Position numbers and translations under genes: made by a program. The notes under the pieces are model-generated. The model made no database searches and was not told the origin of the DNA. It saw only the letters and a program-made list of their open reading frames with translations. A stretch of 64,000 nucleotides of DNA, from assembly GCA_950097265.1 (NCBI GenBank), contig CATNDJ010000005.1, positions 29,508 to 93,507 of the forward strand, in the 5' to 3' direction. The stretch comes from an uncultured Oscillibacter sp. Lineage in GTDB: Bacteria > Bacillota > Clostridia > Oscillospirales > Oscillospiraceae. Positions 33,797-37,760 of the stretch are shown piece by piece (position 1 is the stretch's first letter; the number at the start of each line of letters is the position of its first letter).

Positions 33797-34025
33797 TAGA
33801 ATGAATGTTTGCATTGAAAGGGGAAAGCCGGAAGCGGGCCGGTTCATGCGCCTGGAGAAATTATCCAGGAAGCCCGGATTGATTTCGACAAAAAGCAGGG
33901 AAGGGACGTGCTATCATCAAATTTGAAAGCCTGTCCTGTTTTGCCTACCGGCGGGAAGACGCCCGGCAGAGGGACGCTCCGGCGTTTTTGCATCAGGCAT
34001 ATTTTTGGTAAAAGAGGGGAAACAT

Positions 34026-34331
34026 ATGAAGATCCAGGTGAAGAACGCGGACCGGAACCTGCTGCTGGAGCTCAGCGGGGAGCTGGACCACCAGGGGGCC
34101 CGGACCGCCCTGCGGGAGCTGGAGGAGGCTTTGGACGCGGCGCTGCCCCGGAAGCTGGTGCTGGACTTGTCGGGAGTGACCTTCATGGACAGCTCCGGCA
34201 TTGCGGTAATTCTCCGGGCGCGGCAGAAAATGCAGCTTCTGGACGGCGGGCTGCTGGTGCGGGGCGTGCCGCCCCAGGCCCGGCGGGTCCTGGATGCCGC
34301 AGGCATTAACCGTCTTGTAACGATCAAATGA
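34026..34331 (+). CDS. spoIIAA: Anti-sigma F factor antagonist (STAS)
   Basis: LVLDLSGVTFMDSSGIAVILRARQKM; first gene of spoIIA-type operon. Confidence 0.93.
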   Translation: MKIQVKNADRNLLLELSGELDHQGARTALRELEEALDAALPRKLVLDLSGVTFMDSSGIAVILRARQKMQLLDGGLLVRGVPPQARRVLDAAGINRLVTIK

Positions 34332-34344
34332 GGAGGTTTACATA

Positions 34345-34788
34345 ATGAGGACCAAGGCAGTCAACGAGGCCATCCTGAGCTTTCCCAGCCAGAGCCGGAA
34401 CGAGGGGTTTGCCCGCTCCGCCGCGGCCTGCTTCGCCGCCCAGATGGATCCCACCTTAAATGAGCTGGAGGATGTGAAAACCGCCGTCAGCGAAGCGGTG
34501 ACAAACGCCATTGTCCACGGCTACCCGGACGCCATCGGCAGCGTGACGCTGAAGCTGCGGGTGCTGCCGGGGAATGTGCTGGAGCTGACGGTGAAGGACC
34601 ATGGCCGGGGTATCCCGGACGTGGAAAAGGCACGGCAGCCCATGTTCACCACCGGCGGGGAGGAGCGCAGCGGCATGGGCTTCACGATTATGGAGAGCTT
34701 CATGGACAAGGTGACGGTGCGGTCTGCTGTGAACAAGGGGACCACGGTGGTGATGCGGAAGAAGCTGGCCTCCCGTTTGAAGAAATGA
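34345..34788 (+). CDS. spoIIAB: Anti-sigma F factor (serine kinase)
   Basis: DVKTAVSEAVTNAIVHGYPD, VKDHGRGIPDVEKARQPMFTT, GMGFTIMESFMD. Confidence 0.95.
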   Translation: MRTKAVNEAILSFPSQSRNEGFARSAAACFAAQMDPTLNELEDVKTAVSEAVTNAIVHGYPDAIGSVTLKLRVLPGNVLELTVKDHGRGIPDVEKARQPMFTTGGEERSGMGFTIMESFMDKVTVRSAVNKGTTVVMRKKLASRLKK

Positions 34789-35489
34789 GCGCCGCGCTGG
34801 AGCTCCTCCGGGCGGCGCAGCAGGGGGACCGGGACGCCTGCGAACAGGCGGTCATTGAAAACAACGGTTTGATTTGGAGCGTGGTCCGGCGGTACTATGG
34901 CCGGGGCGTGGAGCCGGACGACCTGTATCAGCTGGGCTGCCTGGGCTTTTTGAAGGCGGTCCAGGGCTTTGACTTTGACTACGGCACCTGCTTTTCCACC
35001 TACGCCGTGCCGAAAATCGCGGGGGAAATCCGCCGCTTCCTCCGGGACGACGGAGCCGTGAAGGTAGGGCGGAGCATTCGGGAGCAGGCCCAGACTCTTT
35101 ACACCGCCCGGGAACGCCTGCGCCACGAGCTGGGCCGGGAGCCGGCCCTCTCGGAGCTGTCGGAAGCCACGGGCCTGACGCCGGAGGAGATTGCCCGGAC
35201 GGACCTGGCCACCGACGCGCCGGAGTCCCTTCAGCAGGAGACGGCGGACGGCCTGACCCTGGAAGGTGCCCTGGGCACCGAGGCCCCGGAGGAGGGGCTG
35301 GTGGAGCGCATCGCCCTTCGGGAGGCCATCGACCGCTTGCCGGAGAAGGAGCGCATGACGATTCTCCTCCGCTATTTTAAGGGGCTGACCCAGGAGCAGA
35401 CGGCCCGGGTGGTGGGAGTGTCTCAGGTGCAGATATCCCGGCTGGAGCGCCGGGGGCTGAAACGGCTGCGGGAGAGCTTTGAGGCTTAA
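34785..35489 (+). CDS. sigF: RNA polymerase sporulation sigma factor SigF
   Basis: Sigma-70 regions 2-4; overlaps spoIIAB stop (ATGA); FSTYAVPKIAGEIRRFLRDDG. Confidence 0.95.
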   Translation: MSAALELLRAAQQGDRDACEQAVIENNGLIWSVVRRYYGRGVEPDDLYQLGCLGFLKAVQGFDFDYGTCFSTYAVPKIAGEIRRFLRDDGAVKVGRSIREQAQTLYTARERLRHELGREPALSELSEATGLTPEEIARTDLATDAPESLQQETADGLTLEGALGTEAPEEGLVERIALREAIDRLPEKERMTILLRYFKGLTQEQTARVVGVSQVQISRLERRGLKRLRESFEA

Positions 35490-36231
35490 ACCAGTCCTCC
35501 CCCTGAAACTCCGTCATAGTTGTCCAGTAGCGCTTAGGCATGTTGCTCATCCTCAGGCGGGGGTTCTCCCGCTCTTTAATGGCGATGGTATCGTAAAACC
35601 GTTTCCACAGCAGGCGGTAGCGGGCCTCCGCCTCGTCCGGCGGGGCCATCTGAAAGTCCGCCAGGGGCCGGATGACCGACTGACCGGGGACGTGGAAGAG
35701 GGCTTCCCTGTGGGTGCGGTCGTAGAGGAAAAAGCGCTCGTTGTGAAACCGGGCGGCGAAGTGCCCGCCCAGCACGGGCAGGACCCGGTTTTTCGGCTCA
35801 ATTTCCCCGCCCAGCACGCCTCCCAGGTCCGAGAAGCGGACGAAGCCTTTTAAGAGATGGACTTCCCCGTTTAGATGCCGGACGGCCCGGATGACCGGGT
35901 ACAGCGTCTCGTCGGAGCGGTTTCGGAGGAAGCCGGGCCCCTCCCGGAGCAGCTTGGCCACCAGCCGGAACAGGCACAGCTCCTTTTCCGGCAGACAGGT
36001 GAGAAAACCCCGCCGCAGCAGGACGGCGGCTTCCGGGGACAGGGCGGTTACCTTCCGCAGGACCCTGGCGGCGTGGCCCGGGTCCGTGGGGACCCTCCGG
36101 GAATCGAATAGGGTATAGACCTCGTCCCCGCCGGAAGAGAATCCGGCGGGGATTTCTCGATGGGCGTAGCTGTCGAAGACGCAGGAGAGGAAGCCGTCGA
36201 AGCTGCCGTCGTAATGGTACATCACTTCCAT
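35377..36231 (-). CDS. TIGR03915/DUF4130-like protein, putative DNA repair/modification partner
   Basis: MEVMYHYDGSFDGFLSCVFDSY...RMSNMPKRYWTTMTEFQ; directly downstream of SplB-like radical SAM gene; C-terminal tail reads antisense through sigF. Confidence 0.85.
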   Translation of the reverse strand: MEVMYHYDGSFDGFLSCVFDSYAHREIPAGFSSGGDEVYTLFDSRRVPTDPGHAARVLRKVTALSPEAAVLLRRGFLTCLPEKELCLFRLVAKLLREGPGFLRNRSDETLYPVIRAVRHLNGEVHLLKGFVRFSDLGGVLGGEIEPKNRVLPVLGGHFAARFHNERFFLYDRTHREALFHVPGQSVIRPLADFQMAPPDEAEARYRLLWKRFYDTIAIKERENPRLRMSNMPKRYWTTMTEFQGEDWFKPQSSPAAVSAPGAPAGISAPETLPPPGPSAPGSAP

Positions 36232-36252: not shown

Positions 36253-37527
36253 CTACGCCGTCTCCGGCCGGTTAAACAGGGACAGCTGTTCCCCTTCCGG
36301 CTGGGGCAGCGTGGGCCTCTCGGCGGCGATGAGCCCCCGCAAAAGGCTGTCCGGCGTGAAGCGCAGGCCCTCCGCCATTTTGCCGGAGGCGGTGAGAAAA
36401 TATTGGGCCCGCTTCATCACCACCCCCAGCTTTTTCAGGTTGTCGATGTGAAGGGGCCCCGTCCGCCGGGCGCTCAGGATCCGCCGGGCGGAAGTGACTC
36501 CCACGCCGGGAATCCGTAGCAGGGTTTCATAGGCGGCGGTGTTGACCTCCACCGGAAAGAAGTCCAGGTGGGCCAGGGCCCAGCTGCACTTGGGGTCCAC
36601 CCGGGTATCGAAGTCCTGGTGGCTTTCGTCCAGCAGCTCCTCTGCCCGGAAGCCGTAGAAGCGCAGCAGCCAGTCCGCCTGATAGAGCCGGTGTTCCCGC
36701 AGCAGGGGGGGCTTTACGTCCCTGGCGGGAAGCAGGGCGTGCTCCACCACCGGAACATAGGCGGAATAGAACACTCGTTTTAGACCATAGCGGTCATAGA
36801 GACCCTGGGTCAGCCGGAGGATGTGGAAGTCCGTGTCCCGGGTGGCCCCGACGATGAGCTGGGTGCTCTGCCCTGCGGGGGCGAAGCGGGGAGCGTGACG
36901 GTATTTCACCAGCTCCTCCCGGCTCTGCCGGTTCCGGGCTTGAATCTGCCGCATGGGAGCCAGAATGGCTCCTTTCGTCTTATCCGGGGCCAGGGATTTC
37001 AGTCCCGCCTCCGAAGGCAGCTCGATGTTCACGCTGAGCCGGTCCGCCAGGAGGCCCAGCCGCTCCACCAGCTCCGGCGACGTGCCGGGGATGGCCTTGG
37101 CGTGGATGTAGCCGTTGAAGCGATACCGCTCCCGGAGCAGGGCCAGGCAGCGGATCATCAGTTCCGTGGTGTAGTCCGGGCTGCGGAAGACGCCGGAGGA
37201 GAGAAACAGCCCCTCAATGTAGTTCCGCCGGTAGAACTGGATCGTGAGGTCTGCCAGCTCCTCCGGGGTGAAGGCCGCCCGCCTGGTCTCGTTGCTCCGG
37301 CGGTTGACGCAGTATTTGCAGTCGTACACGCAGCGGTTCGTCAGCAGCACTTTCAGCAGGGTGACGCAGCGCCCGTCGGCGGAGAAGCTGTGGCAGCAGC
37401 CCGCCGAGGCGGTGGAGGTATTGCCGATATACCCCTTTTTCGCCGCCCGGGTTCCGCCGCTGGAAGTGCAGGCGGCGTCATACTTGGCGGCGTCGGTGAG
37501 GACGGTCAGTTTCTCCAGGAGGTCCAT
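36253..37527 (-). CDS. Putative DNA modification/repair radical SAM protein (TIGR03916-like)
   Basis: CVYDCKYCVNRRSNETRR (CX3CX2C), C-terminal HhH-like LLRIPGVGVTSARRILSARR. Confidence 0.92.
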   Translation of the reverse strand: MDLLEKLTVLTDAAKYDAACTSSGGTRAAKKGYIGNTSTASAGCCHSFSADGRCVTLLKVLLTNRCVYDCKYCVNRRSNETRRAAFTPEELADLTIQFYRRNYIEGLFLSSGVFRSPDYTTELMIRCLALLRERYRFNGYIHAKAIPGTSPELVERLGLLADRLSVNIELPSEAGLKSLAPDKTKGAILAPMRQIQARNRQSREELVKYRHAPRFAPAGQSTQLIVGATRDTDFHILRLTQGLYDRYGLKRVFYSAYVPVVEHALLPARDVKPPLLREHRLYQADWLLRFYGFRAEELLDESHQDFDTRVDPKCSWALAHLDFFPVEVNTAAYETLLRIPGVGVTSARRILSARRTGPLHIDNLKKLGVVMKRAQYFLTASGKMAEGLRFTPDSLLRGLIAAERPTLPQPEGEQLSLFNRPETA

Positions 37528-37694
37528 CGCTTTTCACCCAGGGCCTGCCACAGCCGTACGTTCCAGGCCGCCGGGAGACAGGCCGCCTTGCGGGAGCGCC
37601 GGGCGGGACGCTCAATCAGGTCAATGAGGTGGAAGAGCTGGGCGGTCAGGATGGCGATGCCCAGGATGGTGAAAAAAAGAGTCCAGCCGGTCAT
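37506..37694 (-). CDS. 62-aa single-TM protein of unknown function, first gene of putative SOS operon
   Basis: MTGWTLFFTILGIAILTAQLFHLIDLIERPARRSRKAACLPAAWNVRLWQALGEKRWTSWRN; GGAGG 8 nt upstream; overlaps radical SAM start by 22 nt. Confidence 0.65.
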   Translation of the reverse strand: MTGWTLFFTILGIAILTAQLFHLIDLIERPARRSRKAACLPAAWNVRLWQALGEKRWTSWRN

Positions 37695-37731
37695 ATTGAA
37701 ATCCTCCATATAGAAATTTTGTTCGATTGCT

Positions 37732-37760
37732 ATTGTAACTCGAACAATCGTTCTTGTCAA
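37732..37760 (-). promoter_or_regulatory. SOS-type promoter: TTGACA-N17-TACAAT with LexA-like box between -35 and -10
   Basis: Minus strand TTGACAAGAACGATTGTTCGAGTTACAAT; GAAC-N4-GTTC core at 37742-37753. Confidence 0.8.

Follow-up and report, generated by a model that had tools for sequence, protein, structure and literature searches.

The sporulation sigma factor gene sigF and a putative DNA repair gene of an uncultured Oscillibacter sp. lie tail-to-tail on opposite strands and have exactly 113 nt of their 3' ends in common, an arrangement best explained (probability about 0.7) as an ancient convergent overlap that arose when the repair gene lost its stop codon and the intergenic terminator disappeared. 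Both losses would predate the split of several Oscillospiraceae genera, having taken place in their ancestor, with translation of the repair gene then continuing in one antisense phase up to a Phe-Lys pair of sigF, which fixes the 113 nt. The overlap may have been tolerated because the resulting tail is disordered, and selection on that tail is probably weak, acting chiefly to keep it soluble, disordered and made of Pro/Ala/Ser/Gly, and to shun hydrophobic residues and early stops. Stop-codon mutation is regarded as the chief origin of convergent overlaps (PMC2174442). The present case resembles the overlaps described there in being tail-to-tail, with a stop lost and reading running on to the next antisense stop, but it is long, has been kept over several genera, involves a key sporulation sigma factor and carries a measurable wobble constraint. 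Several observations weigh against this explanation, namely the modest size of the constraint, which may partly act at the RNA level, the 7-10 congeners without overlap, and the shorter overlaps of some other genera, so that tail length has not been preserved.

Geometry and history of the overlap

In the window (the whole 64,000-nt stretch of DNA analysed), sigF (34785-35489, plus strand) is the third gene of spoIIAA-spoIIAB-sigF, and the top NCBIfam matches of its product are NF004052 (2.3e-73) and TIGR02885 SigF (1.3e-72), both under their curated cut-offs. Upstream on the same strand lie spoIIAA (34005-34331) and spoIIAB (34345-34788; TIGR01925 above cut-off). The latter overlaps the start of sigF by the ATGA at 34785-34788, a pattern typical of translational coupling. 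The minus-strand gene at 35377-36231 encodes a DUF4130/TIGR03915 putative DNA repair protein of 284 residues, which matches TIGR03915 above cut-off over residues 5-242 (201.7 bits) and PF13566 over residues 81-241. The open reading frame coordinates bear out the 113-bp convergent antisense overlap of the initial annotation (35377-35489, both strands). They also agree with its description of a tail that runs past the domain end, antisense to the helix-turn-helix of sigF, as the family match stops at residues 241-242 and is followed by SSPAAVSAPGAPAGISAPETLPPPGPSAPGSAP. Opposite this tail stand sigF residues 198-234, including the region 4 helix-turn-helix (Pfam Sigma70_r4, 181-230), in such a phase that the middle base of every tail codon faces a sigF wobble base.

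The overlap is not an accident of one genome. Among 86 genomes of the genus sample (Oscillibacter/Dysosmobacter-like), 68 carry the repair gene and 67 loci were read. In 60 of these the gene overlaps sigF, the shared stretch measuring exactly 113 nt in 51, 104 nt in six and 107, 134 and 236 nt in single loci. The seven loci lacking an overlap comprise five with a gap of 29-73 nt and two, arranged as in O. ruminantium and O. valericigenes, in which the repair operon lies 1.5-3.5 kb from sigF and the genes are not adjacent. Within O. valericigenes, the genes stand apart in Sjm18-20, and the overlap occurs in the culturable An-series isolates. Other Oscillospiraceae genera overlap too, mostly by 60-128 nt, and the shorter overlaps found in some of them measure 12, 24, 60, 80 and 86 nt (12 and 24 nt in one genus each). 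In many genera the repair pair is distant from sigF and the tails are short and ordinary. A FastTree phylogeny of 91 taxa, built from SpoIIAB, SigF, DUF4130 and the radical SAM protein and rooted at the midpoint, places the overlap at the root and requires at least eight changes of state. On this tree the overlap is ancestral, and the congeners without it are therefore mainly secondary losses. Relatives whose genes end normally, which in the initial annotation would point to simple stop-codon loss and count against its inference, do exist, but on the tree they are derived.

End point and wobble-site constraint

The overlap ends at the first antisense stop that sigF offers. Opposite codons Phe198-Lys199 of sigF (TTT AAG, 35376-35381, plus strand) the repair gene's frame meets an unavoidable stop, TAA (35377-35379), since in this phase a TTY followed by A in sigF always gives TAA or TGA on the other strand. 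Of 76 distinct sigF sequences with an overlap, 62 place the antisense stop at Phe-Lys/Arg, 13 place it at Leu/Phe-Thr and one has it at Ile-Ile. Since the nearly invariant Phe-Lys of region 4 forces the stop, the overlap length stays constant at 113 nt, and this length is mechanical, dictated by the sigF protein; an overlap of 110 or 119 nt reflects a sigF C-terminus of different length.

Such a mechanically fixed length is also what a purely neutral overlap would show, with a tail of no consequence and a conservation that is a by-product of sigF. Of 16 relatives in which the repair gene makes no use of this antisense frame, 9 nevertheless have it open as far as the same Phe-Lys stop, so openness by itself is no evidence of function. 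Neutrality is nevertheless unlikely in view of the wobble sites, which were compared with codon-box-matched wobble columns outside the overlap, drawn from these same genes and genomes, the phylogeny thus being common to both sets. Across 61 overlap genomes, wobble diversity is lower in the overlap (-0.090, P=0.0006). Parsimony changes per tip amount to 0.177 against 0.238 in matched columns (ratio 0.74, P=0.0003; ratio 0.78, P=0.0023, once columns able to mutate to a stop are dropped). In congeners lacking the overlap the ratio is 1.05 and the diversity difference +0.086 (10 genomes), a value attained by none of the subsets of 10 overlap genomes. Wobble sites in the overlap therefore evolve at about 0.75 times the matched rate solely where the overlap exists, which also rejects a chance open frame as the whole story. 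The contrast depends on 7-10 non-overlapping congeners, and it carries most weight because the diversity measure differs by up to about 0.1 between other windows of sigF. In addition, early antisense stops are rarer where the overlap exists (1 of 76 sequences compared with about 4 of 16 others, as raw counts uncorrected for kinship).

The extension thus behaves as coding sequence, under a constraint beyond sigF's own, although the effect is modest and could partly have an RNA-level cause. As wobble change is reduced only where the overlap exists, we infer that translation probably extends through the tail and that the tail is under weak constraint.

The SOS operon, transcription termination and sporulation

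The repair gene is the last of an operon on the minus strand that begins with a 62-codon gene (37506-37694), whose 3' end overlaps the start of a radical SAM gene (36253-37527). The latter encodes a putative DNA modification or repair protein (TIGR03916, 646.8 bits, cut-off 343.5), the partner of TIGR03915. As in the known TIGR03915/TIGR03916 pair, both genes are present and adjacent and both score above cut-off, whereas the Oscillibacter pair stands behind a membrane peptide gene with LexA boxes and lies tail-to-tail with spoIIA. The operon is preceded by a sigma-A-type promoter, TTGACA-17-TACAAT (37732-37760, minus strand), with 11 of 12 consensus matches. Its spacer contains a LexA-type box, GAACGATTGTTC, at 37742-37753 on the minus strand (GAACAATCGTTC), and a second, degenerate box, GAACAAAATTTC (37713-37724, minus strand), which is exact in many relatives, follows 29 nt downstream. 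This promoter/two-box layout (37713-37760) is common to 56 loci, and 55 of 67 relatives have an exact LexA-type box ahead of the operon. Of 29 lexA promoters of the genus, 21 contain the core box with no more than one mismatch, mostly as GAACAAATGTTT, and that of the window's own genome reads AAACAAATGTTT; the same box was not found in the region upstream of recA in this genome. Membership of the repair operon in the SOS (LexA) regulon, proposed in the initial annotation as a putative SOS operon, is well supported by these sequence matches across the genus. Other AT-centred GAAC-N4-GTTC sites of the same genome mark possible further SOS genes, one site preceding a gene for a NUDIX-like hydrolase and the other lying near an EcoRI-type adenine methyltransferase-like gene (L241 1501-1512; L237 1501-1512).

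The first gene of the operon encodes a 62-aa single-helix membrane peptide with homologues in about 72 loci from several Oscillospiraceae genera. These homologues span 34-75 aa (typically about 40 aa), lack annotation, share the pattern MTGWTxFFxLVGVxxLTAQLFRxIDxIERPxRR and mostly have Arg-rich ends, and searches of Pfam and NCBIfam gave no family match. The peptide resembles the YneA, SosA and DinQ class in its small size, its one hydrophobic helix and its control by a LexA box, but it differs from that class in sequence motif and has no sequence family match. Its promoter and shape make it a candidate for an SOS division inhibitor or for a peptide acting on membranes, and a more direct candidate for a damage response than a sporulation brake.

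No canonical terminator above the coding-sequence control was found between sigF and the repair gene on either strand, nor in the window over the 330-380 nt or so that follow each stop codon, nor on either strand in 62 overlapping congeners, in keeping with the missing hairpin reported in the initial annotation. Two possible terminators were rejected as no stronger than the coding controls: GCGGGGGTTCTCCCGC-TCTTT within the repair gene, near 35557-35578, and, in some relatives, a hairpin-TTTTT that lies about 300 nt beyond sigF. Strong terminators followed by T-runs stand directly 3' of sigF in the non-overlapping loci L007, L057 and L059 (-35.5, -29.1 and -31.1 kcal/mol). L057 and L059, which are arranged like L151 and L145, show the separation of repair operon and sigF known from O. 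ruminantium and O. valericigenes. For Rho, no protein reached the family cut-off in 53 genomes of the genus; weak matches far under the cut-off were the only ones in these genomes and in the window's own genome, and Rho-dependent termination was accordingly set aside. The genus appears to lack Rho, and with neither local terminators nor Rho, antisense read-through becomes plausible, making mutual 3' antisense transcription of the SOS operon and spoIIA plausible as well. Under the stop-codon-loss explanation, the two mRNAs may thus share more than 113 nt at their 3' ends, and an effect on sporulation would be a possible side effect and not the reason why the overlap exists.

The initial annotation had offered this read-through as a possible damage-to-sporulation brake. 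In such an excludon-like scheme, DNA damage would lead to cleavage of LexA, the SOS promoter would fire and polymerase would read through sigF and further into spoIIA. Colliding polymerases or the cleavage of double-strand RNA would then lower spoIIA expression. The SOS promoter with its one or two conserved LexA boxes and the same core box at lexA, the lack of both a strong terminator and a recognisable Rho, and the retention of the arrangement across genera are all consistent with it. Excludon schemes include convergent genes without a terminator (PMC7154746), and the present locus resembles them in having opposed units of different physiology with no terminator between, but here overlapping transcripts are a prediction and mutual repression is hypothetical. 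Further, in C. difficile a lexA mutant sporulates poorly, and in B. subtilis Sda provides a DNA-damage checkpoint on sporulation (PMC4689574). As the explanation of the overlap, however, the brake is decidedly unlikely and not the leading one. The two units have only their far 3' ends in common, with the SOS promoter about 2.3 kb away, and any effect would act in cis alone and only when both promoters fire in one cell. The overlap length is dictated by the Phe-Lys of sigF. At least eight state changes occurred on the tree, and at least five congeners have lost the overlap, one loss being accompanied by a strong sigF terminator (L007/L223), and sigF and the repair gene stand apart in O. valericigenes and O. 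ruminantium. That a conserved SOS-sporulation excludon operates in these Oscillospiraceae, apparently without Rho, with damage lowering sigF expression in cis, is improbable. Concerning spoIIA control, a Spo0A box noted by eye (TTCGACA, 33884-33890) was dismissed as a conserved element, the exact box being present in just 47 of 94 upstream regions.

Composition of the tail and implications

The composition of the tail follows largely from its phase. GC-rich sigF wobble bases, facing the middle bases of the tail codons, yield Pro, Ala, Ser, Thr and Gly, and the P/A/S/G make-up of the tail thus appears to be mostly due to them. At the same positions, overlap genomes differ from non-overlap genomes in P/A/S/T (65% vs 52%), hydrophobic residues (11% vs 17.5%) and stops (0.3% vs 1.6%), and sigF makes unusual use of ATA and GGG codons at the overlap sites. 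This enrichment in small residues solely where the tail is used, the unusual codons at tail sites and the reduced wobble change could indicate that the tail is a useful extension of the repair protein, kept because it serves as a flexible linker, contacts a partner or adds stability; this is quite improbable, given that the family profile is complete without it, that orthologues elsewhere end about 10-30 residues past the core, that its length differs among lineages and several have lost it, and that the wobble bases explain most of its composition. A strongly selected domain is rejected, since both length and sequence drift and some lineages lose the tail.

Collectively, the stop-codon-loss explanation makes this locus a clear example of a long-standing convergent coding overlap in which the protein sequence of the partner sets the end point. 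It also allows the coding cost to an important partner gene to be measured, with relatives that have lost the overlap as the reference. If a conserved SOS-sporulation excludon were true, it would constitute a route to delayed sporulation distinct from Sda. If the read-through is real, these bacteria, which apparently lack Rho, would provide a natural setting in which to ask whether antisense transcription from a DNA-damage operon is able to restrain sporulation.
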